This document shows positions 13,390 to 28,566 of a DNA stretch of 64,000 nucleotides, in pieces (the first letter of the stretch is position 1; each line of letters opens with the position of its first letter). The position numbers and the translations under genes were made by a program. A model generated the notes under the pieces. It did no database searches, had not been told where the DNA came from, and saw only the letters and a list, made by a program, of their open reading frames with translations. Origin of the DNA: Clostridia bacterium (GTDB lineage: Bacteria; Bacillota; Clostridia; Christensenellales; Borkfalkiaceae); contig JAFQWV010000028.1 in assembly GCA_017407325.1 (NCBI GenBank), forward strand, positions 62,001-126,000. Reading direction: 5' to 3'.

Positions 13390-14310
13390 TTATATCATTT
13401 TTTCGCAAAGCGACTCGATATACTCTCTTTTTATAAGCGCGTCTTTCCAATCTTCAGGGATAGATTCGTAGCCGTACAGCGCGCCCGCTACTCCCCCCGC
13501 GATTGCGCCAACGGTATCCGTGTCAGAACCCAAATTAACCGCTTTTAAAACACAGTCTTTATAAGTGTCGGTATTTAATAAGCACCATATAACAGCTTCT
13601 AAAGTGTCAACTATATAACCACTACTTTTTATCAATTCGCGCTTAGTTTTTGCGAAATTTTCGTCAAACAATCTGTTGTAATAACCTAATTCAGTATTAT
13701 TTTTATAAAACTCTTTTGCCGTTTGTAAGCTCTCAATAACAGTGTTTTTAGAAGGATTTTTAAGCAAGCCCCACAAGATAAACGCATATATTCCACAACC
13801 TATTTTCGACCTTTCGTGCGCGTGAGTTAACGCAGAAACGTTATGAATAATTTCTATCTTTTTATCAACTTTCAAATCTTTATTGTAAAGATATAAGACA
13901 ATCGGATGAATTCTCATTAAAGAGCCGTTCCCATTATCAAATTCGCCGTCTTGACCGCATTGTAGCGCAGGCGCTTGCTTTGATAAATACTTCTTTAAGG
14001 CTATAACAGTCGTTATTCCCATATCAAAAACGACTTCGGTCGGAGTGTATTTCGCTTCAACCATCCACTTACAAAACTTTAGCATCATATCGTCGTAGTC
14101 TATGCCACTTGAAAGACTGTCCATGCACGCTAAAGCCGTACTTGTATCGTCAGACCACGCACCCCTTGGCACGGGATGAACGCCGTACCCTTTCATATCC
14201 GTTACAGGATTTATATCTAATTCTTGTCGGCTGGAAAACTCTACGGGAACGCCTAGCGCATCACCTACCGCATGTCCTATAACAACCGCTTTCACTTTTT
14301 CTATAAACAT
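13390..14310 (-). CDS. ADP-ribosylglycohydrolase (DraG family)
   Basis: The 306-aa protein has the DraG metal-site motifs: GHAVGDALGVPVEF (about 12-25), RGAWSDDTSTALA (about 49-61), a central NGNGSLMRI (about 129-137) and the C-terminal NLGSDTDTVGAIAGGVAGALYG (about 262-283). These Asp residues bind the di-magnesium centre that removes ADP-ribose from proteins or small molecules. TAGGAGCG precedes the ATG. No ADP-ribosyltransferase partner is visible in the window. Confidence 0.92.
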   Translation of the reverse strand: MFIEKVKAVVIGHAVGDALGVPVEFSSRQELDINPVTDMKGYGVHPVPRGAWSDDTSTALACMDSLSSGIDYDDMMLKFCKWMVEAKYTPTEVVFDMGITTVIALKKYLSKQAPALQCGQDGEFDNGNGSLMRIHPIVLYLYNKDLKVDKKIEIIHNVSALTHAHERSKIGCGIYAFILWGLLKNPSKNTVIESLQTAKEFYKNNTELGYYNRLFDENFAKTKRELIKSSGYIVDTLEAVIWCLLNTDTYKDCVLKAVNLGSDTDTVGAIAGGVAGALYGYESIPEDWKDALIKREYIESLCEKMI

Positions 14311-14438
14311 ATAACGCTCCTACGTCTTTTTAACCATTATACATAAATTACCAAAAAAATCAAGCCCTTTATATTTTCAAGCTAAGAAAAAACACTTATC
14401 GAGATTCTTAGGCAATAAAAAAGCAACAGTCAGTTAAA

Positions 14439-14475
14439 ATGCACCCCAAAAGTTTGTCTAACTTTTGGGGTGCAT
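14439..14475. terminator. Strong hairpin at the left edge of the peptide island
   Basis: ATGCACCCCAAAAGT and ACTTTTGGGGTGCAT form a 15-bp perfect stem with a 7-nt loop. It separates the sensor kinase gene from the host-like ADP-ribosylglycohydrolase gene. T-runs are weak, so it may be a repeat as well as a terminator. Confidence 0.6.
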
Positions 14476-14514
14476 ATCATTTCAAACTCTCGGTCAGTTT
14501 AAATAAGTATTACT

Positions 14515-15927
14515 TTAAACATTAGAAACTATTTTAAAATTTGAATTTTGATCAAATATAATTTCAATAGTTTTCAATTTTTCCCCGCATCCTTGATTTA
14601 AAAAGAATGATGCACGATATTTTCTTAGAAGTTCACAAATTGTAACAAGTCCTATTCCACTACCACCATCATTAATATGTGTAGTAATTTTTTTTGATCC
14701 AAAATGTTCTAAAACAATTGATTCAAAAGGAATTCCCGTATCACAAACTTTTACTGCATAGTTACAGTTTTTAATATAAAATTTAACTTCAATTATTTTT
14801 TCGCCTGAATATTTTGTTGCAATTATTGCATTTTCAATCAAATCCGCCAAAATCGTGATTAAATCAATTTCATTAATACTGTTTTCAATTAATTCTTGAA
14901 CCGAACAATCGACATATACTTTGAACTCAATTCCATTTTCAATGGCCTTATTTCTCATTAAGCCAAGTATACTATCAACAGCAAAAACATCTGTTTTTAG
15001 AATTTGATTATTAGTTGTTTGCGAGGTTATAAAATACTGCTTCCTATCCGCATTTTCTTTATGCAAATAATTAATAAATTCCATAAGTCTTTCTTGCGCA
15101 ATCTTGTCAGTTGTTTCTTTAGCTACAATTGTTAAAGTATTTATAAACGAAGAAATCACTTTGTTATCTCTATGTATTACTTTTGCCAACGCTTGATTTT
15201 CAGCTTCAATCTCAGTATTTTTCAGTTGTAATTTGTCAATATTTTTATTAAGCTCATCGATTTCTTTATTGAATTGTCTTTGAATATAGGTTTTTCTTAA
15301 ATGTGATTTCCAAATAAAGAACAAAACTATACCGAAAAACGCAATTAAAAAAGCAATAAAAATAATTAAAACATTTTCTTTGTTTTTTATTTCACCAAAA
15401 GACATCAACAATATTATTGCTATGCTTATATATATACAAAGATCCGAATCAACATATTTTTCTAAATTTGGTATTCCCTTTCTAAATCTTTTTATTTTAA
15501 AAAATAAAAAAACTATTATGATTTGAAAAACACCCGTTAAAATATTTTGAATTAAGTTTACTATATAAGTTGCATTAAAATTGAATATTTTTTGAGAAAC
15601 AAATAATATAAAACTCGCAAAAAATACACTTATAACAGCAACAACAAACGAAAAGGAAATTGCAATTAGACCAATTGGAATAACCGTTTTAAACGACAGC
15701 TTTAAAAGCAACTTTACCAAAAGCAAAAAAGGAACAACTAAAGCTAAAATATACAGTTCATAAACCAATTGTTTTACAATCATATATAAAAGCGATGTTA
15801 TAATTGCTCCTAAAAGCAAAAAACATCTCTTTTGTGCGGAAATTTTCATATTTTGCATTTTGCAAAATGAATAAAAACCACATAATGCAATAAAGAAATA
15901 TTTTATTGAAATTACTAATACATCCAT
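14515..15927 (-). CDS. AgrC-like sensor histidine kinase (GHKL ATPase)
   Basis: The first 210 residues contain about six or seven membrane segments. A coiled-coil (FNKEIDELNKNIDKLQLKN) leads to the probable phosphoacceptor LAKVIHRDNKVISSF (His about 253), and the C-terminus is a GHKL ATPase with N box ADLIENAIIATKYS, G1 box VCDTGIPF and G2 box GGSGIGLVTICELLRKY. This layout is that of AgrC/ComD-type kinases, which detect exported peptides. It lies downstream of the response regulator in the same direction, and a tiny peptide gene on the opposite strand sits between them. Confidence 0.85.
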   Translation of the reverse strand: MDVLVISIKYFFIALCGFYSFCKMQNMKISAQKRCFLLLGAIITSLLYMIVKQLVYELYILALVVPFLLLVKLLLKLSFKTVIPIGLIAISFSFVVAVISVFFASFILFVSQKIFNFNATYIVNLIQNILTGVFQIIIVFLFFKIKRFRKGIPNLEKYVDSDLCIYISIAIILLMSFGEIKNKENVLIIFIAFLIAFFGIVLFFIWKSHLRKTYIQRQFNKEIDELNKNIDKLQLKNTEIEAENQALAKVIHRDNKVISSFINTLTIVAKETTDKIAQERLMEFINYLHKENADRKQYFITSQTTNNQILKTDVFAVDSILGLMRNKAIENGIEFKVYVDCSVQELIENSINEIDLITILADLIENAIIATKYSGEKIIEVKFYIKNCNYAVKVCDTGIPFESIVLEHFGSKKITTHINDGGSGIGLVTICELLRKYRASFFLNQGCGEKLKTIEIIFDQNSNFKIVSNV

Positions 15928-16054
15928 TTTTATCTAATTCTAAACATTTGTAAACATTAAATCACACAAAACTACATAAAGCAATTCCCATAAAAAAATA
16001 CAGATTTTACCTGCAATTATTTATACTTAAATCAAAAATATGGAGGTAAGATTT

Positions 16055-16102
16055 ATGTCATTTTTCGATTGGATTGCAAATTGGTTCAACTGCATTTTTT
16101 AA
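16055..16102 (+). CDS. Putative 15-aa peptide (MSFFDWIANWFNCIF)
   Basis: ATG at 16055 is preceded by ATGGAGGTAAGATTT, a near-perfect Shine-Dalgarno site at good spacing, and the frame stops at 16102 after 15 codons. The peptide is amphipathic and aromatic-rich with a single Cys. A TATACT box at 16022-16027 lies about 30 bp upstream but has no good -35, as expected for an activated promoter. It lies antisense in the gap between the kinase and regulator genes. It may be a signal or bacteriocin-like peptide; the strong ribosome site in an AT-rich gap is the main support. Confidence 0.5.
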   Translation: MSFFDWIANWFNCIF

Positions 16103-16110
16103 TAACAGTT

Positions 16111-16893
16111 TCAACTATTCAATTTACAAGCATAATAATAAACAAATTCCATAAGCGTAGGAATTCCCCTTTTTGGACTTACTCTTGCGGTATAATATTT
16201 TGATAAATCATCTATCGGAGTATTAGCCCATGCCACGGAAATTGCATTTTGCATCACCCTTTCTACACTCTTAATAGTTTTTCCGTATTTTTTGCTAATT
16301 TCTGCCTTAAAATCAGCATTAGAATTATTGATGCACGTTAAAATTGCATCAATAAAATATTTGAAAGCAATTGATTTTGGACTAATGCCAATATAATTTA
16401 ATTCGTTTATTATTCTTCGCTTTTGCTTAGATTCAATTTCCTGTGCTAAAACTTGATTTTCTTCAGCTAATTCAGAATTCAAAATTCGTTTGTTATGTAA
16501 CGATTTTTTCATTGAGTATAAAAAGTCAACCACGTTTTTAGCACTATAATCCTCTTGATTCTTACAAAGAATGAAGTCAGCCCCAAGCTCTCTTGCGTAT
16601 TCATACGTAACAGAACTTGTATTGTGTGTTGTAATTAAAACAAATGGAACAATGGGAATGGTTAGTGTATTTAGTTTTCTTAAGAACTCTAACCCATTCC
16701 CATTTCCTTTGTGCAATTCTAAATCCAAAATAATAGCATCTGGTAAACCTTCTTGAACAAGCTCTATCGCTTTAAATATATTATTAGTCGCTCCAATTAG
16801 AAAAATGTCATCTTTTAAATTTATCGCCTGAGTAATTGCTTGACATTCCACGGGATCATCTTCAATTAATAAAATTTTCAATTTCCTTTCCAT
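16111..16893 (-). CDS. Response regulator with Spo0A-type DNA-binding domain
   Basis: Residues 5-125 form a CheY receiver with acidic pocket EDDP (11-14), phospho-acceptor D57 (AIILDLEL), the switch Thr in VLITTH (about 88) and K111. After a coiled linker, residues about 160-258 closely follow the Spo0A C-terminal domain: INELNYIGISPKSIAFKYF, KYGKTIKSVERVMQNAISVA with W after it, and VSPKRGIPTLMEFVYYYACK. It is probably a Spo0A-like paralogue dedicated to the adjacent peptide genes rather than the sporulation master regulator. AAGG sits 8 nt before the ATG. It is followed on the same strand by the AgrC-like kinase. Confidence 0.85.
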   Translation of the reverse strand: MERKLKILLIEDDPVECQAITQAINLKDDIFLIGATNNIFKAIELVQEGLPDAIILDLELHKGNGNGLEFLRKLNTLTIPIVPFVLITTHNTSSVTYEYARELGADFILCKNQEDYSAKNVVDFLYSMKKSLHNKRILNSELAEENQVLAQEIESKQKRRIINELNYIGISPKSIAFKYFIDAILTCINNSNADFKAEISKKYGKTIKSVERVMQNAISVAWANTPIDDLSKYYTARVSPKRGIPTLMEFVYYYACKLNS

Positions 16894-16964
16894 CGCAAAC
16901 CTTAATTATCCTTTTTTAATAATTATACCATAATTAAAAATAAAAACAAGTGAAAAGAACACAA

Positions 16965-17032
16965 AACGACAAAAAGCAACAAAAAATCACCACACTAGAG
17001 TTCAATGTAGAATTATAAAAATATGGTATCAT
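16965..17032 (+). promoter_or_regulatory. Candidate Spo0A-like box and peptide-2 promoter
   Basis: The only clear -10 before peptide 2 is an extended TGGTATCAT (17024-17032). No -35 hexamer stands 17 bp upstream, as expected for an activated promoter. At 16973-16965 the minus strand reads TTTGTCGTT, matching seven of nine positions of the Spo0A box TTTGTCGAA. That the local Spo0A-like regulator acts here is inference. Confidence 0.35.
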
Positions 17033-17093
17033 ACGAAATGTTAAAATATAAAAAGCAAAAGATTCTAACAATAATTATACGGGAGCGTTTAAC

Positions 17094-17195
17094 TTGGCAA
17101 CTATTAATAATTCTACAAAGTTTGATGTGAAATGCGTAAAAAATAGCAACAAAACAACAAAATCCGTATTAGAATTTGACTGGGGTGTTGAATAA
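17094..17195 (+). CDS. Putative 33-aa precursor peptide upstream of the ABC genes
   Basis: TTG at 17094 follows GGGAGCGTTTAAC, a good ribosome site. The peptide begins MATINNSTKFDVKCVKNSNK and ends SVLEFDWGVE. It lies directly before two ABC-permease genes and an M50 protease, separated from them by an attenuator-like hairpin, the usual layout of a precursor peptide expressed in excess over its exporter. One Cys and a C-terminal FDW motif are notable; FDW also occurs in the 15-aa peptide. There is no modification enzyme such as a radical SAM or LanM nearby. Confidence 0.6.
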   Translation: MATINNSTKFDVKCVKNSNKTTKSVLEFDWGVE

Positions 17196-17218
17196 TTTAT
17201 AAAATAAACTGAAAGCTG

Positions 17219-17250
17219 CCCTTAGGAGCATAATCTCCTAAGGGTACCTT
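17219..17250 (+). terminator. Attenuator-like hairpin between peptide 2 and the ABC genes
   Basis: CCCTTAGGAG and CTCCTAAGGG form a 10-bp perfect stem with a 6-nt loop, followed by a weak T-run (TACCTTTTAT). It would lower but not abolish read-through into the transporter genes, raising the peptide-to-exporter ratio. Confidence 0.7.
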
Positions 17251-17274
17251 TTATAAAGTAATAGGTGTTAAATC

Positions 17275-19179
17275 ATGAAAATTAGCAGTTTTAACTTAAA
17301 AAATAAATTTATTTGTTATAAAAATCTTATGTTTGATTTTTCATCTTTTGGCATATATAAAATTAACGGTGAAAATGGAACAGGTAAAACATCTATAATT
17401 GAGAAAATAGTATTCGGCAATTACTCTGTACATTTTGAAGAGGAAATGCATCTTCAATTGTGGAAAAAGAAACGGTATGAACTTTTTACATATATTCCAC
17501 AAGCAACAGCAGATAATAACCTTAATGTTGGTGAGTATATTTGCAAGGGTAATCGCAATATTAAAACTGAAGATGCTCTTTTACTCTTAAACGCTTTTGG
17601 ACTAGATGCGAGTATTGTTTCTCAAAAATTTAAAATTCTTTCCGGTGGAGAAAAGAAAAAAATACAAATAATAAGTGGTTTATTGAAAGATACGCCGTAT
17701 ATTTTTCTTGACGAACCTACAAATAATTTGGATAACGCCTCAGTTGATTGTTTAAACAAAATATTAGATAAACTCAAATATAATAAAACTATAATTTTAA
17801 TCTCACATGATGAGCGATTAGCACACTCAGTAATTACAGAATATTGCTTAGATGGTAAAAGTTTATATTCTGTTAAAAAACAAGCACATTGTGTAAATAA
17901 AGAATGCTGTAAAAACATAGAAATATCGACTAAAAAAGTTTATAGTAAGAAGCTTTCTTTTTTTAAAATCCTTGCGCCTGTTTTGCGAAATTACGGACAA
18001 ATAGTAACAACGTGCATTTTAAGTTGTGTGTTTGTTTTACTTTCATTATATGCTAATTATGAATTTAAGAATGGTTTAAATGAAGATATTCCTATAAAAG
18101 AAAATATTGTTTTGGTTCAAGGAAGTACCAATTTTGATGAGGAACTACTTTCTTATTATTTAAAGGGCGAACATATAAGTGTTGATGAAGCGCTACAATC
18201 CAGATATTTAAATCTCAATGATATATATGAAGATATAAGTAAATTGGAAGGTATCGAAAAAATCTACATAACAGACGTAAAATATCAAGCAGAAATAGAA
18301 TCAATGATAGCAAATGGTACTATAGGTAATGAACTTCATTTTGTTTCTTGCCCCCAAGAGTATGTACAAGACTGTTGGGATTATAGTATTGTTGATTACG
18401 GATTAAGTATGTTGCAAGGACAGTTCCCAAAAGATGGCGAACTAGAAGTTGCACTTTCAAAAAATTTGTTATGCACTTACTTTGGTTATACAGATGCAAC
18501 TGTTTGTAATGCAATTGGTGATAGTGTTAGCCTATCTATTTGTGGCATTGAAAAACTTTATAGAATAGTCGGATTTACTTACTTCGACTATGTCTTAGTT
18601 TCTTATAATGAAGATGTCAACTTTGGAATCTATTGTTATGATGAGTCTACATTTGGAGAATTTGGGATGGCGCAGATTCAATTTGAAACGGACAGGGATG
18701 GGTGGCCGGCAATGATCCGTGAGTCTATTATATTAACTGCTCAAGGATATGAAGCCAAAATTCTAAATCATTTAGTAACACATTATCCTGCGGGTGATTT
18801 TCTTTCCCACCACTATTGTGTTGTATGGGCAAAAACATTCAATACAAAAAGATTTATAGATGTGCTTATTCCCAATTTAATAATTGCAGTTATTCTTTCC
18901 ATAGCTTTTATAATCATTAATCATTACGCCATTAAGTATAACTTTGCATTGTTATGGGATTATGGAAACTACTATATCAATAGAAATAAAATGAAACTGA
19001 TTTACTGTGTCTTGTCGTTATCTCTATATCTATTGATTGCGCTGTTAGCTATAATTCTAAATTATTTAATTAGTCCTTATGCTTATATGAGTAGTTGGTA
19101 TTTAATAATAGATAGTTGTATCACGCTTGTTCCTTTAGGCATATCTTATTTTATAAAAAAAGGAAAATGGAAGTTTTAA
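17275..19179 (+). CDS. ABC ATPase-permease fusion, peptide exporter half 1
   Basis: Residues 1-210 are a compact ABC ATPase: Walker A GENGTGKTS (about 34-42), signature LSGGEKKKI (about 123-131), Walker B YIFLDEPTNNLD (about 142-153) and H-loop SHDER (about 178-182). One membrane segment (ILSCVFVLLSLYANY, about 250), a long outside domain of about 270 residues and three membrane segments near the C-terminus follow, the MacB/FtsX order of parts. With the next gene it probably forms a heterodimeric exporter of the small peptides, or an immunity pump. Confidence 0.8.
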   Translation: MKISSFNLKNKFICYKNLMFDFSSFGIYKINGENGTGKTSIIEKIVFGNYSVHFEEEMHLQLWKKKRYELFTYIPQATADNNLNVGEYICKGNRNIKTEDALLLLNAFGLDASIVSQKFKILSGGEKKKIQIISGLLKDTPYIFLDEPTNNLDNASVDCLNKILDKLKYNKTIILISHDERLAHSVITEYCLDGKSLYSVKKQAHCVNKECCKNIEISTKKVYSKKLSFFKILAPVLRNYGQIVTTCILSCVFVLLSLYANYEFKNGLNEDIPIKENIVLVQGSTNFDEELLSYYLKGEHISVDEALQSRYLNLNDIYEDISKLEGIEKIYITDVKYQAEIESMIANGTIGNELHFVSCPQEYVQDCWDYSIVDYGLSMLQGQFPKDGELEVALSKNLLCTYFGYTDATVCNAIGDSVSLSICGIEKLYRIVGFTYFDYVLVSYNEDVNFGIYCYDESTFGEFGMAQIQFETDRDGWPAMIRESIILTAQGYEAKILNHLVTHYPAGDFLSHHYCVVWAKTFNTKRFIDVLIPNLIIAVILSIAFIIINHYAIKYNFALLWDYGNYYINRNKMKLIYCVLSLSLYLLIALLAIILNYLISPYAYMSSWYLIIDSCITLVPLGISYFIKKGKWKF

Positions 19180-19180
19180 A

Positions 19181-20923
19181 ATGCAATTGTATTATGATGA
19201 TATTGCCATAAAGAAAAAGTTGCTGCTTAACGGAAGCAGCTTATTAGTCCCAGAAACAGGAATTACTATAATTCAAGGGAAAAATGGCTGTGGAAAGACC
19301 CTGTTATTAAAAAATATATTTTCTAATAATAAAAATTCTGACAAATCAATAGTATTTATAGATCAAAATAATAATAGTATTTTGACAGGTGTAAATGTAC
19401 TTCAAAATATATCTATGTCTAGTGATATAAATATAAATGATAAGATAAAACAACAACTCCAGAATTGGGGATATGATTATTTATTAGAGCATTCATCCTC
19501 CAAACTCAGTGGTGGTGAAAAACGCTTAGTCAATTTATTTAGGGGCATTTTATCTTCAGGAAAAATACTCCTTATTGATGAACCGACAAATGATCTTGAC
19601 AATGCTACAGTAAATAGAATAAAGCAATTATTTCAAGAGTTATCAAACTATAAACAACTAATAATCATAACGCACGACGATAGAATTATTTTAGACGGAA
19701 GCACAATTTACGAAATATTCGAAAAAAATATTATCAATCTCTCGACTGCGTTAACGGCTCTTGACGATTCTGAAAATCCTATAAAGCACACTATGACTAT
19801 TGTAACTCATAGAGATAATAAATTTTTAAATAAAGTTTTTCATTTAAACTTTATTTCTATTATTTTTGCGCTGATATTTTTTTTGGTTTCTATATTTCAG
19901 TTAGTAAATTATAATGATAACAGTTTAACGGATAATCTGAAACATATAAAAGAAAATCAAATTAATCTATATAATACTCTATCGATATCGGTAAATGATA
20001 GAATATTCGACGGCGTATATCCATTAGCAACAGTTGATTTGTTATACGATGATAATCCATTTACGCAATTACGAAAATTTAATGCTGTAAAAAAATTATC
20101 ATCGCAAAGTAATAATACAAATATTACTTTTAATTTGAATATTCCAAGCTCTGAATCGTATACTGTTTATCCATTTGAATTTTATGATGTTGCAAACAAA
20201 AAAACTTATTTTACTTTAGATTTATATCTTCAAAAATATTATGATACAAATTGGGATGTTGCAACCGTAGATACGACCGCAGTATTTGATTTGCCTTTTG
20301 AAATCACTTACACAGAAAAACCACCAATTTACAACTTTAACCCACAAAAATTTTTAGATTGTGCTAAAATATTAGAAGAAAAGACTTCTTCATCTGGACA
20401 AAAATTGGAACTGGTTTGTATTGTCATTGTCTTAAATAATAATTATTCATGTAAAGAATTTTACAATTCAACAGCTTTTAAAGATATTAATATTAATAAT
20501 AATTTAATTTGTTCTAATGAGGTAATAAATTGTATTTTAGAGGTATCTCAGTTTAAAAACATAACCGACAGTTGTTTGGTTTTAATGGTTACGGCAATAG
20601 CTTTAGTATTATTTGATACTCTTTTTCTAATATTGCTATTAAGATTGTTTAAAAACAGAATCTTTATTGTAAAAAATTATGCTTATAAAAGAGAGGACGT
20701 AATTACAGCCGCGTTAAAGAAAATAAATAATCGTTACCCTAAATTGCTTATTTTATTCATATTTATCATTATAAACTTTATTATTTGTAGAAATTTTATT
20801 TTTTTTAATATCAATTGGTTATTTTCTATATTTATGACACTATTTTTGGCTTTTAACTATTGGTGTGCTAATAGTGTTATAAGATTAATGATTCAAAAAT
20901 ACTTTAAGTGGGAAGCAAGATGA
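19181..20923 (+). CDS. ABC ATPase-permease fusion, peptide exporter half 2
   Basis: This has the same architecture as the preceding gene: Walker A GKNGCGKTL (about 33-41), signature LSGGEKRLV (about 107-115), Walker B ILLIDEPTNDLD and H-loop THDDR. A membrane segment at about 225-245, a large outside region and three C-terminal membrane segments follow. It starts one base after the stop of its partner, with AAAAGG upstream, so the two are translationally coupled. The two halves share layout but only modest sequence similarity, as in heterodimeric transporters. Confidence 0.8.
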   Translation: MQLYYDDIAIKKKLLLNGSSLLVPETGITIIQGKNGCGKTLLLKNIFSNNKNSDKSIVFIDQNNNSILTGVNVLQNISMSSDININDKIKQQLQNWGYDYLLEHSSSKLSGGEKRLVNLFRGILSSGKILLIDEPTNDLDNATVNRIKQLFQELSNYKQLIIITHDDRIILDGSTIYEIFEKNIINLSTALTALDDSENPIKHTMTIVTHRDNKFLNKVFHLNFISIIFALIFFLVSIFQLVNYNDNSLTDNLKHIKENQINLYNTLSISVNDRIFDGVYPLATVDLLYDDNPFTQLRKFNAVKKLSSQSNNTNITFNLNIPSSESYTVYPFEFYDVANKKTYFTLDLYLQKYYDTNWDVATVDTTAVFDLPFEITYTEKPPIYNFNPQKFLDCAKILEEKTSSSGQKLELVCIVIVLNNNYSCKEFYNSTAFKDININNNLICSNEVINCILEVSQFKNITDSCLVLMVTAIALVLFDTLFLILLLRLFKNRIFIVKNYAYKREDVITAALKKINNRYPKLLILFIFIIINFIICRNFIFFNINWLFSIFMTLFLAFNYWCANSVIRLMIQKYFKWEAR

Positions 20924-21354
20924 TTTTTTTTAAAACTATTTTTGTAATATATGTTACATACAGCATATCAGTAATTCTTCATGAGTTAGCTCATTTCATA
21001 TGCGCTAAGTTAATGCGTTTAAAAAATGTGGATATTTATATAGGCGAAAAATTTTTAGCTATCAATATAAAGCGTTTCCATTTTTCTCCATTAATTACCA
21101 GCGGGTATGTTGAGTTTGATTTAAATAGTTTAATAATAAAAAAGAATTGGCAAATAATAATATTTTATATGGCGGGAGCATTTGCAAATATATTAATTAT
21201 TCTAATTTCTTTAATAATTATGCCTTATACGAAGTATTCTATTTACATTGTTTTAGTTAATGTGTTTTGCGTATTAACCAATCTATTCCCTCTAAAAAAA
21301 TTACATAATGATTTTGGCAATTGTTTTCTTGTTTTTGGTAAAAAAAGAACATAG
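20920..21354 (+). CDS. M50 (site-2-protease-like) membrane metalloprotease
   Basis: The 144-aa protein has the zinc motif HELAH (ILHELAHFICAKLMRL) in the first membrane helix, a central AGAFANIL segment equivalent to the S2P (S/A)GPxAN motif, and NLFPLKKLHNDFG, where the Asp fits the third zinc ligand (NxxPxxxLDG). It starts with an ATGA overlap onto the second ABC gene, so I prefer ATG 20920 to a GTG at 20908. By analogy with YydH in the yydFGHIJ operon it may trim or release the exported peptide. Confidence 0.78.
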   Translation: MIFFKTIFVIYVTYSISVILHELAHFICAKLMRLKNVDIYIGEKFLAINIKRFHFSPLITSGYVEFDLNSLIIKKNWQIIIFYMAGAFANILIILISLIIMPYTKYSIYIVLVNVFCVLTNLFPLKKLHNDFGNCFLVFGKKRT

Positions 21355-23942: not shown

Positions 23943-25682
23943 TTAAAAACATTTTTCAATGATTTCATCCGAAAATTTATTATATTGGCTCGACGTATAT
24001 AAAAATTCATCTGATGAAAAATTAAATTTATGCTTTGAATAATGATTTAAATAATAATCTCTGGTTTGACTTCCATTTGTTGCCAAATCTTTTCTAAGTG
24101 TTAAAACAAAACTATTAAATGTTATTACTGTAAGTATTTTCGAGTTTGGGTCATTCCATTGATCAAGATAAACTTGCCTAATAGCTGAAAAATACTGAAC
24201 AAGATATTCGACACAATAATTTAAATATTCCTCCTTGATATTATCATCCTTATCAATATCCATTTTTTTATCATTATCCCAAACAGTATAAAGGCTTGCT
24301 TTTCCTTCACCCGGGTTTAAAGATACTAAATACCTTAAAGCAAATTTTATAATAGAAGCGACTTTTAATTTCGCAGGCTTAAGTGGCGAAAATTCAAAAA
24401 AGTTAAAAAATAAATGTTTATTATTTAATCTTTCAAGAATTTGTCGCGCCAAGCTCAAATCCGACAAAGGTTGACGAAGCATTTCTATATGTAAAAGAAC
24501 ATCAGGCGGAATCGGCTTAGATTTTGAATTAATTTCAGCAAAAATCTCACTTTGAATTTTTACCCTTTCACTTTGTGTCATATTATTAGGAAAAATTAAT
24601 CCTGTTACCAATAAATGTAACTGTTGACGCAATTTAGCAATTTTTGTTTCCACAGGATCACTTTCTTCTCCTTCGTAATGAGCAAAAATTCTATGTTGAC
24701 CGTCAATTACACAAATGCTATTCATCTTATTGGGAATGTGCATAGTGCAATTTTGGAAAGATCCCATATCTTCCAAAGCAATAGGATTACCATTATTATC
24801 CGTAAATCTTATGCCATCTGGCAATGCTACAATAATGTTATTATAAAAACATTCGCCTTTTTGATATAAAAAGTTTCGTATATCTTTAATTTTATTTAAG
24901 TCTATTAATCTTTGATATAAGCCAATGGAATCTTCCCAATTATCCTTTCTAAGTACATAACTATTCCTAATCAATGTTTCTGCTGATAACATAAAAGAAA
25001 CTAAACGCACCCCGTCTTTACGCCCTGTACTCTTTTGAGGATAAATAATAGAAACTTTAACATCTTTAGTTCCCTGTCCTGTGCTAGAGGTCATTTCAAA
25101 ATCTGAATCAGTTACACCTAAAAATCTAAAGACTTCGTACTTAACGGATTTTTTTATGCCCGATGCGCATTGATATAGATAAGATAATACATTTGGTTCA
25201 ACTATATTCCAAGGAGAAAAACGTTGTTTATCTTCTATTGCTAAATTTGTTTCATTTAAAGAAAAATAAACAAATTTAAATTTCAATTCTGATATTTCAT
25301 AATTAGACAAATCTGCCGTTTCTTGAGGGAATTCGCTTATTAAAAAAGATAAAAATTGCTCTTTATTATCAAGTATTTCAGTAGCTGTTTCCTTCTTCCT
25401 TATTATATGATCTTTGATATGATCGGCAGAAGAAGTGGTTTCTTCGCATATTACAATGATATTATTAAAAATGAAGATACCATCCACTTCAGCAGTCTTA
25501 TTACCAATAGTAAAATGTTTATTTTCACTATTAATCATACAAAATGAAGCCATTTTAAAAATAGTTTTATATTTCTTTTTAAAATTCGTGCGAATTCTAA
25601 CTTCTGCTTGTTTTCTTGCTCTTTCTTTTTTCTGTTCAGGTGTTAAATGAACACGTTTTTTCTTTGATGTAACTTTTTTCAT
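23943..25682 (-). CDS. DGQHR-domain protein (DndB-like)
   Basis: The 579-aa protein carries CVIDGQHRIFAHYEGEES at about 325-342, the defining motif of DGQHR-domain proteins, a family that includes the DndB regulator of DNA phosphorothioation. The N-terminal part, with AEVDGIFIFNNIIVICEETT (about 63-82), resembles a nuclease-like fold in which the usual ExK is EET, so it may be inactive. It overlaps the upstream methylase by an ATGA. No dndC/D/E genes are present, so its job here, perhaps control of or damage response to the methylases, is unknown. Confidence 0.78.
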   Translation of the reverse strand: MKKVTSKKKRVHLTPEQKKERARKQAEVRIRTNFKKKYKTIFKMASFCMINSENKHFTIGNKTAEVDGIFIFNNIIVICEETTSSADHIKDHIIRKKETATEILDNKEQFLSFLISEFPQETADLSNYEISELKFKFVYFSLNETNLAIEDKQRFSPWNIVEPNVLSYLYQCASGIKKSVKYEVFRFLGVTDSDFEMTSSTGQGTKDVKVSIIYPQKSTGRKDGVRLVSFMLSAETLIRNSYVLRKDNWEDSIGLYQRLIDLNKIKDIRNFLYQKGECFYNNIIVALPDGIRFTDNNGNPIALEDMGSFQNCTMHIPNKMNSICVIDGQHRIFAHYEGEESDPVETKIAKLRQQLHLLVTGLIFPNNMTQSERVKIQSEIFAEINSKSKPIPPDVLLHIEMLRQPLSDLSLARQILERLNNKHLFFNFFEFSPLKPAKLKVASIIKFALRYLVSLNPGEGKASLYTVWDNDKKMDIDKDDNIKEEYLNYCVEYLVQYFSAIRQVYLDQWNDPNSKILTVITFNSFVLTLRKDLATNGSQTRDYYLNHYSKHKFNFSSDEFLYTSSQYNKFSDEIIEKCF

Positions 25683-26593
25683 TTGTTTTTTCTTGCCTCT
25701 CGAAATTCTTCAGGTAATTTAGCCACCGCTGTATTCAAATCAGGCTCTATTACTGGAACATCTTCTCTAATGTTTACTTCGCCCCGCATTGCTTTTCTAA
25801 TTCTATCCAAGGTAATGTCATAATACTCGTCTTTTAATTCTGATCCTATAAATTTCCTTTCATCTAATAAGGCAGCCAAAGCAGAAGTCCCTGATCCCAT
25901 AAACGGATCCAAAACTACTCCGTCTTTATTTGTTAATGCCCTTATTAATCGTTGTGGAAGAGCTGAAGGAAATTGACAAGGATGTGCTGTTTTTTCTATG
26001 TGATTTGCTTTAACGTTAGGAATATCCCACACATCAGAAGGATTCTTTCCTAGAGGATTTCCGCTTAATTCACCTTTATGCTCACCCTTATAATATCTTT
26101 TCCCTGGATATTTTTGAGGAACACGTACACTATCAAGATCAAAGTTATAATCTTCACCTTTGGTAAACCATAAAATTGTTTCATGACGACCGCTAAATCG
26201 TTGAGTACTATTTAAACCATGCCCAAATGTCCAAATAATGCGATTTCGTAATATTAACGGATCAGGTAATTGCTCATTTTGGGAAGTAAATATTTCATAC
26301 ACCAAATAATCTAAAGGTATAACATTTGCATTAGATACATGATATCCTGTCTGCCAACAAATACTTCCGCCTTTTTTTAAAACTCGATAAAGTTCACCAA
26401 ATATTTTATTGTGGAGTTCTTTAAATGTTTGAATATCATCTTTGGGATTCTCATACGCCTTTTTCATGCAATAAGGTGGAGACGTTACTATCAAATCAAC
26501 ACTTTCATCTGGAATTTCTTTTAACAAATCAACGCAATCACCTTTAAATAAGGTCATGCGACTATTTTTATTATAATGCGTGTATATTTTCAT
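25679..26593 (-). CDS. DNA adenine-N6/cytosine-N4 methyltransferase, beta class
   Basis: The catalytic motif TSPPYCMKKAY (motif IV, about 38-48) precedes the AdoMet site VVLDPFMGSGTSALAALL (motif I, about 225-242), the order of beta-class enzymes. TSPPY is compatible with N4-cytosine or N6-adenine methylation. The 304-aa length fits. It has no obvious cognate nuclease of its own, since the HaeIII-like enzyme upstream pairs with the C5-methylase. The target cannot be read from the sequence. Confidence 0.85.
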   Translation of the reverse strand: MKIYTHYNKNSRMTLFKGDCVDLLKEIPDESVDLIVTSPPYCMKKAYENPKDDIQTFKELHNKIFGELYRVLKKGGSICWQTGYHVSNANVIPLDYLVYEIFTSQNEQLPDPLILRNRIIWTFGHGLNSTQRFSGRHETILWFTKGEDYNFDLDSVRVPQKYPGKRYYKGEHKGELSGNPLGKNPSDVWDIPNVKANHIEKTAHPCQFPSALPQRLIRALTNKDGVVLDPFMGSGTSALAALLDERKFIGSELKDEYYDITLDRIRKAMRGEVNIREDVPVIEPDLNTAVAKLPEEFREARKNK

Positions 26594-26609
26594 CGTCTTT
26601 ACCTTTTAA

Positions 26610-27563
26610 TTATCTCCACGAACAATTTATTGAAATTATTGTTGCAGGCATTCCGACAATTTGCACGTCGAACTTAAGACTTGTTTCAACTTTAGTAGAG
26701 GCGTTATGTATGCGGAAGTTGAATTGCCAACCACCATCCATATACAGTTCAACCGTATTAGTACTATTAGGCTTGAAATCAAAGTTAACAATACGAGTAG
26801 GTAATGAGGCAATAGGAATTTGAATTTTAGGTTTATTTGTACGACTTGATTGATTGAGTTTGCCATGTAAGTTATAAGTTTGAATTTGCGTTATTCTTTT
26901 GCTATCAATACTTATTACTTTATAAAAGTCAAATTCGCCAAGCAAGTATTCAACCATTTTACGAGGAACAGTATAATCACTGCTATTACTTTTCTGAATT
27001 TCATTCATAAAGGCTTGCAAAAGAGGTACATACACTTGTAAATCTTTTGAAGGCAATTCACTCCATTTTTTATCGAGTGTTTTTTGTTCACTCAAATAAT
27101 CAAATATAGGTTTTATTGCATTCCAATAATCTTGAGAACAAGGAACATTAAACCATTTTGCACCAAAATCTAAACTTTTTCCTATACGGCTATGTTTTAC
27201 GGCAAAATGATTATGTTTTATACTTAAGCCAATTTCCCATTTAACGTCTTTTCTTGTAATAACAATATCTCTAACGTCACCGTCTTTACCTTCTTTATCG
27301 GTTTGGCAAGTAAGAACTACCATATCTTCGCCTTCTTCTAACAGCATAGGCTCCATATCAAAAATGGTAGCAGTTGTCGCCTTAGCACTTTCAGTCAAAA
27401 CATTTTGCAAAAATGGCGAAATACTATTCCACGCATTTGCATTAGCATTTAAGGCACTATTAATTTGAACTATTGCAGGGCGGACCTTTTGTATTTCCTC
27501 ACATAACGTTAATACACAAATATATTCGTATGCACGACCTTGATTATTGCTTTGTTCACTCAT
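26610..27563 (-). CDS. HaeIII-type restriction endonuclease (predicted target GGCC)
   Basis: The 317-aa protein starts with NNQGRAYEYICVLTL, the signature opening of the RE_HaeIII family (R.HaeIII is 318 aa). It keeps the internal block KDGDVRDIVITRKDVKWEIG then LSIKHNHFAVKHSRIGKSL, with the D...E/K pattern expected of the active site. It is placed 10 bp downstream of a C5-methylase that closely resembles M.HaeIII, so cleavage at GGCC is likely. A GGAGAAAAATT site precedes the ATG. Confidence 0.88.
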   Translation of the reverse strand: MSEQSNNQGRAYEYICVLTLCEEIQKVRPAIVQINSALNANANAWNSISPFLQNVLTESAKATTATIFDMEPMLLEEGEDMVVLTCQTDKEGKDGDVRDIVITRKDVKWEIGLSIKHNHFAVKHSRIGKSLDFGAKWFNVPCSQDYWNAIKPIFDYLSEQKTLDKKWSELPSKDLQVYVPLLQAFMNEIQKSNSSDYTVPRKMVEYLLGEFDFYKVISIDSKRITQIQTYNLHGKLNQSSRTNKPKIQIPIASLPTRIVNFDFKPNSTNTVELYMDGGWQFNFRIHNASTKVETSLKFDVQIVGMPATIISINCSWR

Positions 27564-27573
27564 AATTTTTCTC

Positions 27574-28566
27574 CTATGCGTTTTCTAAGGCATCTTTAAT
27601 TGCTACTGCAACCTCATAAGCGAGGTTTACAGGAACAGCATTACCAATCATTTTGTATGCGTCATCCGTATTTTTATATATAAACTGGAAAGAATCGGGA
27701 AAACCTTGAACTCTTGCAATTTCTCTTATAGACATACGGCGATATAAATGTTCTTTGCCTTTGACAAATTCTCGCTTGTTTTGAGATATAAATTTCATTT
27801 TAGGTGCTTGCGGATGAATTTGACATTGCCTGCCTGACGCTTGCACGGTAAAAGCCTGTTCATCCCAACCTTTTACACGATTTCTACTCATAAAAATAGT
27901 TGAGTAAGAACCTGTAAAGTATTCATTATTATTTATAGCCTCAGGATTGTGGTAATTTTTTGCTCCAGCAGGCACAACTGAAAATTGCAAATCCCAAATA
28001 ATATCTCTTAACGTTAATCTATTTCTGTTTTTTGTTGAGCCTTCGGGAAACTTAAAATCAATATTTAAATCATTTCTAAATCCGATATAAAAAACACGTT
28101 TTCTTTCTTGCGCAACACCATAGTCTTTTGCGTTCACTAAAGTAATTGAAACATTATACCCACATTCTTTAAATGTTTCAATAATATTTTTAACAGCTTC
28201 AGAATGTCTATTTGCCAACATCCCACTTACATTTTCAGCAAGAAAAAATTTTGGCTTTTTGCTTTTAAGTATTCTAATATACTCATAGAATAGTTTTCCA
28301 CGAGAATCCTCTATTCCCCTCAAAGAACCTGCTTCAGACCAAGATTGACAAGGTGGTCCACCGATTATCCCATCTATCTCATCAGGAAAATCTTCTTCCT
28401 TAATTTTACGAATGTCTCCCTTTATTAGCTTCGTTTTAGGATGATTAGCCTTAAATGTTGCCCAAATAGTAGGGTCAAACTCATTAGCAACAGGAATTTC
28501 AAAACCTGCTCTTTCAAAACCTAAATCAAGTCCGCCACAGCCACTAAATAAACTAATAAGTTTCAT
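27574..28566 (-). CDS. DNA cytosine-C5 methyltransferase, M.HaeIII-like (GGCC)
   Basis: Motifs in order are [18 protein letters not shown] (I), [19 protein letters not shown] (IV, catalytic Cys in PPCQ), [11 protein letters not shown] (VI), [20 protein letters not shown] (VIII), and [20 protein letters not shown] with [14 protein letters not shown] (recognition region), then [15 protein letters not shown] (X). The recognition region looks nearly the same as the one I know for M.HaeIII, so GGCC is the expected target. The start lies one base beyond the controller gene's stop codon. Confidence 0.93.

Follow-up and report, generated by a model that had tools for sequence, protein, structure and literature searches.

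A leaderless aromatic peptide family beside GHKL kinases and Spo0A-type regulators in Clostridia: candidate signals of a two-component system

Known systems built on small bacterial peptides differ in how the peptide is made and where it acts. In the AgrC/AgrA and ComD/ComE systems, each signal is released by cleavage of a precursor, with AgrB acting on AgrD and a C39 transporter on ComC, and linear pheromones that work with membrane kinases are, as far as they are known, likewise cut from longer precursors. MgrB/SafA-type microproteins of enterobacteria are very small (about 47 to 65 amino acids [aa]), possess a transmembrane segment, are produced under the control of the system that they modulate, and presumably contact its kinase within the membrane. 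Leaderless communication peptides (LCPs, e.g., SIP) are mostly 8 to 10 aa long and bind a cytosolic receptor, RopB of the RRNPPA family (PMC10518010). A survey of two-component quorum sensing assigned the HATPase_c_5 kinases to the LytTR family without mentioning Spo0A (PMC8895600). A literature search, with most subscription journals outside its reach, returned no description of a leaderless-peptide/GHKL/Spo0A-type arrangement, and the family of tiny aromatic peptides beside an AgrC-like kinase and a Spo0A-like regulator that we report here is apparently undescribed.

The window (the whole 64-kb stretch of DNA that was analyzed) contains a leaderless aromatic peptide gene of 15 codons at positions 16055 to 16102 (+), whose codons ATG TCA TTT TTC GAT TGG ATT GCA AAT TGG TTC AAC TGC ATT TTT TAA read as MSFFDWIANWFNCIF and which is preceded by a GGAGG ribosome-binding site at 16042 to 16046 (+). 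These coordinates exactly bear out the first-pass annotation, which had reported a 15-aa open reading frame (ORF) behind GGAGG between a response regulator and a kinase. The gene occupies a 183-nt gap between the two, both of which lie on the minus strand; it stands head-to-head with the kinase gene, with start codons 127 nt apart, and tail-to-tail with the regulator gene. An Rfam scan of 14300 to 17400 found no family.

The kinase gene (14515 to 15927, −) encodes a GHKL (HATPase_c_5) membrane histidine kinase, the predicted receptor, as evidenced by Pfam and by a 470-aa structure model with a polytopic N terminus. A series of long helices precedes the signaling helix at residue 183 of the model, which is consistent with a polytopic sensor, and fold matches of the cytoplasmic half include the AgrC kinase core. 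Residues H252 and N366 and those of the G box are invariant. The locus thus shares with AgrC/AgrA and ComD/ComE a polytopic GHKL kinase, a response regulator, an adjoining peptide gene, and feedback on the signal gene, the last of which is predicted here. It differs in that their regulators are of the LytTR type, whereas the output domain here is Spo0A_C by Pfam. Moreover, the 95% complete genome has no match to AgrB (PF04647) or to the C39 peptidase (PF03412), and the peptide has no GG motif, in contrast to the double-glycine leaders of ComCDE/Blp systems.

The nearest described principle is that of the LCPs. In both cases the peptides have no leader or cleavage sites and are hydrophobic and aromatic, the gene lies by that of its known or predicted receptor and is often divergent from it, and the neighboring targets vary; LCPs also exert positive feedback on their own gene, as is predicted here (PMC10518010). 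The differences are that the peptides described here are amphipathic helices of 12 to 21 aa and that their neighbors are a GHKL membrane kinase and a Spo0A-type (Spo0A_C) regulator rather than a cytosolic RopB/Rgg (RRNPPA) receptor.

Evidence that the ORF is a gene comes from its recurrence. A homolog of the kinase occurs in 12 other genomes of 300 within the family, and an alignment-based scan of named genomes identified 53 loci in records titled Lachnospiraceae, Ruminococcus, Oscillospiraceae, and other Clostridia, where a single-sequence scan of genome contigs had found no matches. Searches at the order and class levels added further loci, and a search of viral contigs found none. A strict rule (12 to 22 aa, at least four F/W/Y residues, and a ribosome site of at least 5 nt) was applied to the kinase-regulator gaps of 59 non-redundant homologous kinase loci from other Clostridia. 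It detected an antisense ORF in 33 of the 59 gaps and a sense ORF in 1, compared with 0.5 in dinucleotide shuffles. The antisense count rises to 42, with peptides of 13 to 21 aa, when gaps are included in which the ribosome site is of the GGGGGGG type or the aromatic residues are fewer; this larger figure consists partly of calls made by eye, and the automatic count is 33 of 59. Seven further loci carry a peptide on the sense strand of the same gap (six from the class search, together with L083; e.g., MNWYEDFLWWLKYWLY and MEEWFDALWQWVSKWL). Peptide gene and kinase therefore occur together in several families of Clostridia, at 49 loci in all (42 antisense and 7 sense), and the peptide is kept beside the kinase even in L019 and L020, where no regulator adjoins. 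Also, a terminator-like hairpin lies 3′ of 32 of the 42 antisense peptide genes (0.9 in shuffles), unlike the window, where the peptide gene has no obvious terminator. The gene family and its kinase linkage are direct observations.

Such short reading frames invite the objection that an ORF of only 15 codons arose by chance, or that it is a leader peptide or a conserved stretch of nucleotides that encodes no functional peptide. When the strict rule was extended to 222 intergenic regions of these loci, it returned the known peptides, that of L083, and only three unrelated matches, so recurrence lies far above both the shuffles and the intergenic background, and a chance ORF is rejected. In the window, no same-strand gene directly follows the ORF. 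The amphipathicity, silent-change excess, and covariation with the sensor described below also speak against this explanation, which we regard as extremely improbable. Judged from these comparisons, the ORF for the 15-residue peptide is a genuine gene, and it belongs to a widespread tiny-peptide family in gut and rumen Clostridia.

Within the window's own genus, the kinase is absent from six other genomes, and the neighboring first ABC gene has no close homolog in a 200-genome sample of the family, being found only here. The island that carries the peptide locus was therefore probably acquired, and the reading of the window rests on distant relatives.

Comparison of eleven pairs of related loci revealed more silent than replacement changes in the peptide codons (pS 0.47 versus pN 0.23). 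Frame-disrupting changes, which the first-pass annotation had named as a refutation, were not found among these distant relatives. Frame +1 has no silent excess, and frame +2 has a smaller one. The pair L016/L017 gives pS 0.69 and pN 0.08; outside it the test is modest, and as a supportive rather than decisive result it suggests purifying selection on the peptide codons. The family peptides, of which MWGLLKSFWSWVRTLWLI, MFKAFWSWFLTLLLI, MGFWEWFWSLFSI, MWDWWKFILDLLNQ, MSFWERVIDFFAKLIG, MWARFFNWFSSLFMFR, and MAEFWRILRDLFAA are examples, are leaderless, amphipathic, and aromatic, 12 to 21 aa long (many of them 13 to 16 aa), and, like that of the window, ultrashort products with their own ribosome site and an adjoining kinase gene. 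When pooled, they contain 39% F/W/Y. Their mean helical moment at 100 degrees is 0.52, compared with 0.26 (standard deviation [SD], 0.018) in shuffled peptides, and the moments at 160 and 180 degrees are not raised. Across the family, charge varies between −3 and +3.

The response regulator (16111 to 16893, −) consists of receiver (Response_reg) and Spo0A_C domains, as identified by Pfam, and its D57 is invariant. Its Spo0A_C match scores 59.4 bits against a Pfam cutoff of 25, and the nearest solved DNA-binding domain to its own is Spo0A-C (1LQ1). It is not the sporulation regulator Spo0A, a candidate that was rejected since the match to the full-length Spo0A equivalog TIGR02875 reaches 86.9 bits, below the cutoff of 200, and since the genome encodes a separate, better Spo0A_C match (134 versus 61 bits). 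An expectation-maximization (EM) search of the regions upstream of the peptide genes revealed a tandem repeat, ACAAAAACCAACAAAAAGCAA, with a 10-bp period, which most loci have at a matching position, mostly 75 to 100 nt before the start codon. Variants such as TTCGACAAAA read as the classical Spo0A box on the complementary strand, and they fit the regulator because its DNA-binding domain is closest to Spo0A-C. The likeness to Spo0A thus extends to the family of the DNA-binding domain and to TTCGACAAAA-type sites repeated in tandem every 10 bp, and the difference is that the window regulator does not serve as the sporulation regulator.

In the window, the EM motif appears as the Spo0A-box-like tandem repeat ACACAAAACTACATAAAGCAA at 15964 to 15984 (+), a predicted regulator site that precedes the candidate promoter of the peptide gene. 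In a scan of the 64 kb with a weight matrix from which the window locus had been withheld, the best site lies at 16969 to 16989, with an overlapping register at 16959 to 16979. This top regulator-type repeat (16959 to 16989, +; 20.7 and 16.7 bits) is a near-copy of the peptide gene's site and is located between the regulator gene and a divergent operon. Genome-wide, its closest matches are itself, the site before the peptide gene, and one A-rich match elsewhere. Many other loci likewise have their best sites ahead of the peptide gene and just upstream of the regulator gene, oriented as for a divergent target.

The predicted target operon begins with a 33-aa ORF, MATINNSTKFDVKCVKNSNKTTKSVLEFDWGVE, read with a TTG start at 17094 to 17195 (+) and followed by a terminator at 17217 to 17246. 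It has no homolog in 200 genomes of the family. This ORF resembles an exported-peptide precursor, with its own terminator and a position behind the best regulator box and before the ABC and M50 genes. The latter predicted targets span 17275 to 21354 (+) and comprise two fused ABC ATPase-permeases (17275 to 19179 and 19181 to 20923; Pfam ABC_tran), which weakly match the bacteriocin-export ABC family TIGR03608, and an M50-type peptidase (20908 to 21354; Pfam Peptidase_M50). Putative divergent targets vary among loci: L016 has caspase-type and companion genes, L039 has an RHS protein, those of L055 lie near ABC homologs, and others occur elsewhere. The putative target in L016 (12427 to 14186, +), divergent from the regulator, encodes a TIR-like-looking pair of small proteins and an EACC1-type caspase, a hint that peptide sensing may be connected with a system for conflict or cell death.

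If the peptide is a ligand, its sequence should track that of the receptor. Among 34 loci, the correlation of peptide distance with the distance of the kinase membrane part (r = 0.55) is higher than that with the distance of the catalytic part (r = 0.40). The partial correlation with the sensor, given the catalytic part, is 0.42, a value that none of 2,000 permutations reached, while that with the catalytic part, given the sensor, is 0.07 (P = 0.20). The sensor correlation persists without the densest clade (0.29). The peptide co-diversifies with the membrane sensor domain of the kinase, as expected of a ligand and its receptor.

This pattern bears on two other functions. The peptide could be a leaderless bacteriocin or a membrane-active peptide resembling phenol-soluble modulins, with the two-component system controlling its production and perhaps sensing for immunity. 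An amphipathic aromatic helix would suit such a role, as would the weak bacteriocin-export match of the nearby ABC genes. The variable charge of the family, the single copy per system, the lack of an immunity gene tied to the peptide, and rapid divergence that parallels that of the sensor domain all argue otherwise, and we consider this function improbable.

The main rival of the pheromone reading is a membrane-bound feedback microprotein that, like MgrB on PhoQ, is controlled by the regulator and modulates the kinase of the same cell, with no cell-to-cell signaling. Most of the evidence seen here would be expected from it as well: a short, amphipathic, aromatic peptide with no leader or export gene tied to it, a regulator motif upstream, and covariation with the sensor domain. 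The likeness, drawn from general features, is that of a very small protein tied to a histidine kinase, and the difference is that MgrB and SafA are longer and carry a transmembrane segment, for which the many peptides of 13 to 16 aa are short. Against a microprotein, moreover, several parallel systems with unlike peptides coexist within one genome (L041/L046, L048/L069, and L016/L027), and predicted targets in several loci resemble competition genes, as in known quorum-sensing modules. We therefore judge it unlikely, with perhaps one chance in a handful, and favor the pheromone.

Expression of the peptide gene appears to be guarded by RNA structure. An inverted repeat at 16005 to 16051 (+) pairs TTTTACC (16005 to 16011) with GGTAAGA (16045 to 16051), and its right arm overlaps the ribosome site. 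Between loci, the two arms vary in concert (e.g., CTCCGT/ACGGAG, CCGCCTTTCTTT/AAAGAAAGGTGG, and AACCTCT/AGAGAGGTT), and across 42 loci the mean pairing energy of a locus's own arms is −13.8 kcal/mol, compared with −10.4 (SD, 0.33) for permuted arms, beyond all 2,000 permutations. Covarying arms, like the shared motif, were observed directly. The loop contains a candidate −10 element, TATACT (16022 to 16027, +), at a position that agrees with relatives; −10 enrichment on its own is weak (23 versus 12 of 42), and promoter positions are thus candidates. Because this element sits in the loop, a transcript from the peptide's own promoter would be without the left arm. For transcripts from this promoter, the ribosome site has a predicted openness of 0.44; for read-through transcripts the value is 0.23, and these should be silent. 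Insulation from leaky expression is the simplest use of the hairpin, and the palindrome may have a role at the DNA level.

The first-pass annotation had also proposed that the operon transcript is antisense to the peptide mRNA, a proposal called into question by the head-to-head and tail-to-tail arrangement in the window and by the seven sense-strand loci. A further rival is a type I toxin-antitoxin system, in which a small hydrophobic toxin is repressed by the antisense operon transcript. The predicted sequestration of the ribosome site in longer transcripts and the position of the peptide opposite the operon strand in most loci are compatible with it. Nevertheless, seven loci have the peptide on the operon's own strand, where the operon transcript would not be opposite to it, such pairs are without constant kinase linkage, and the Rfam scan found no family; we give a toxin-antitoxin pair next to no credence. 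The sense-strand loci lead us to reject an antisense-RNA role for the operon transcript. Moreover, about ten loci that belong to one clade (L021, L022, L024 to L027, L069, L074, L077, and L079) have a perfect TATAAT 12 nt ahead of the start codon of the kinase gene, so that kinase and peptide genes form a divergent pair there, and the best reading is that antisense orientation is incidental. A Spo0A-box-like site lies behind the TATAAT in the same ten loci, and the kinase has no ribosome site, suggesting a leaderless kinase mRNA and a promoter common to the divergent peptide gene.

We consider it likely that the leaderless amphipathic aromatic peptide is an unprocessed, or nearly unprocessed, ligand of the adjoining GHKL kinase, coupled to a Spo0A-type feedback module. 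In this model, the peptide would act on the membrane kinase, which would phosphorylate the Spo0A-type regulator. The regulator would bind the 10-bp tandem repeats that precede the peptide gene, producing positive feedback, and would also bind upstream of a divergent target (in the window, the 33-aa ORF/ABC/M50 operon) to activate it. The hairpin would hide the ribosome site in transcripts begun upstream, leaving it accessible in those from the peptide's own −10, and would keep the loop off until the regulator turns the peptide promoter on. Translation, export, binding, the sign of the response, and contact between regulator and DNA are what we infer. The initial suggestion that an unprocessed peptide signals to an AgrC-like kinase thus gains support as the best explanation from the 49 loci shared with the kinase, retention without a regulator in L019 and L020, codon changes, and co-diversification with the membrane domain; signal activity itself is predicted. 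Most likely, the peptide is the kinase's own signal, in what would be a new style of bacterial cell-to-cell communication. With somewhat less assurance, we lean toward a widespread quorum-sensing class in Clostridia that combines unprocessed peptides of 12 to 21 aa, GHKL kinases, Spo0A-derived regulators, and a promoter-embedded hairpin that silences read-through.

If this is true, pairing a leaderless peptide with a membrane kinase would make processing genes unneeded, and it would explain a set of uncharacterized two-component systems in gut and rumen Clostridia. About fifty peptide sequences are ready for synthesis and testing. A cultured test case probably exists, because the record of L054 (peptide MAEFWRILRDLFAA) is titled as a strain, Bacterium 1XD21-13.

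Other features of these loci deserve mention. About ten loci of a rumen clade with tandem kinases have no recognizable peptide, a point against the signal reading. In eight rumen loci with tandem kinases (L044, L051, L058, L064, L065, L070, L080, and L082), the peptide-less gap holds a conserved non-coding element on the operon strand, approximately GCGAGAATTTTTCATATCACCACCAAAGCCCGCTG followed by a terminator-like hairpin, which is possibly a small RNA or an attenuator. In the window, positions 23943 to 28566 (−) contain what appears by eye to be a DNA modification island, with two methyltransferase-like genes and a DGQHR-motif protein. Finally, one clade encodes a conserved 90-aa protein that belongs to no Pfam or NCBIfam family (L008, 1125 to 1397, +; L011, 1087 to 1365, +; L014, 2482 to 2754, −); its gene lies just downstream of the kinase gene and faces it, and regulator-type sites occur nearby in several loci.
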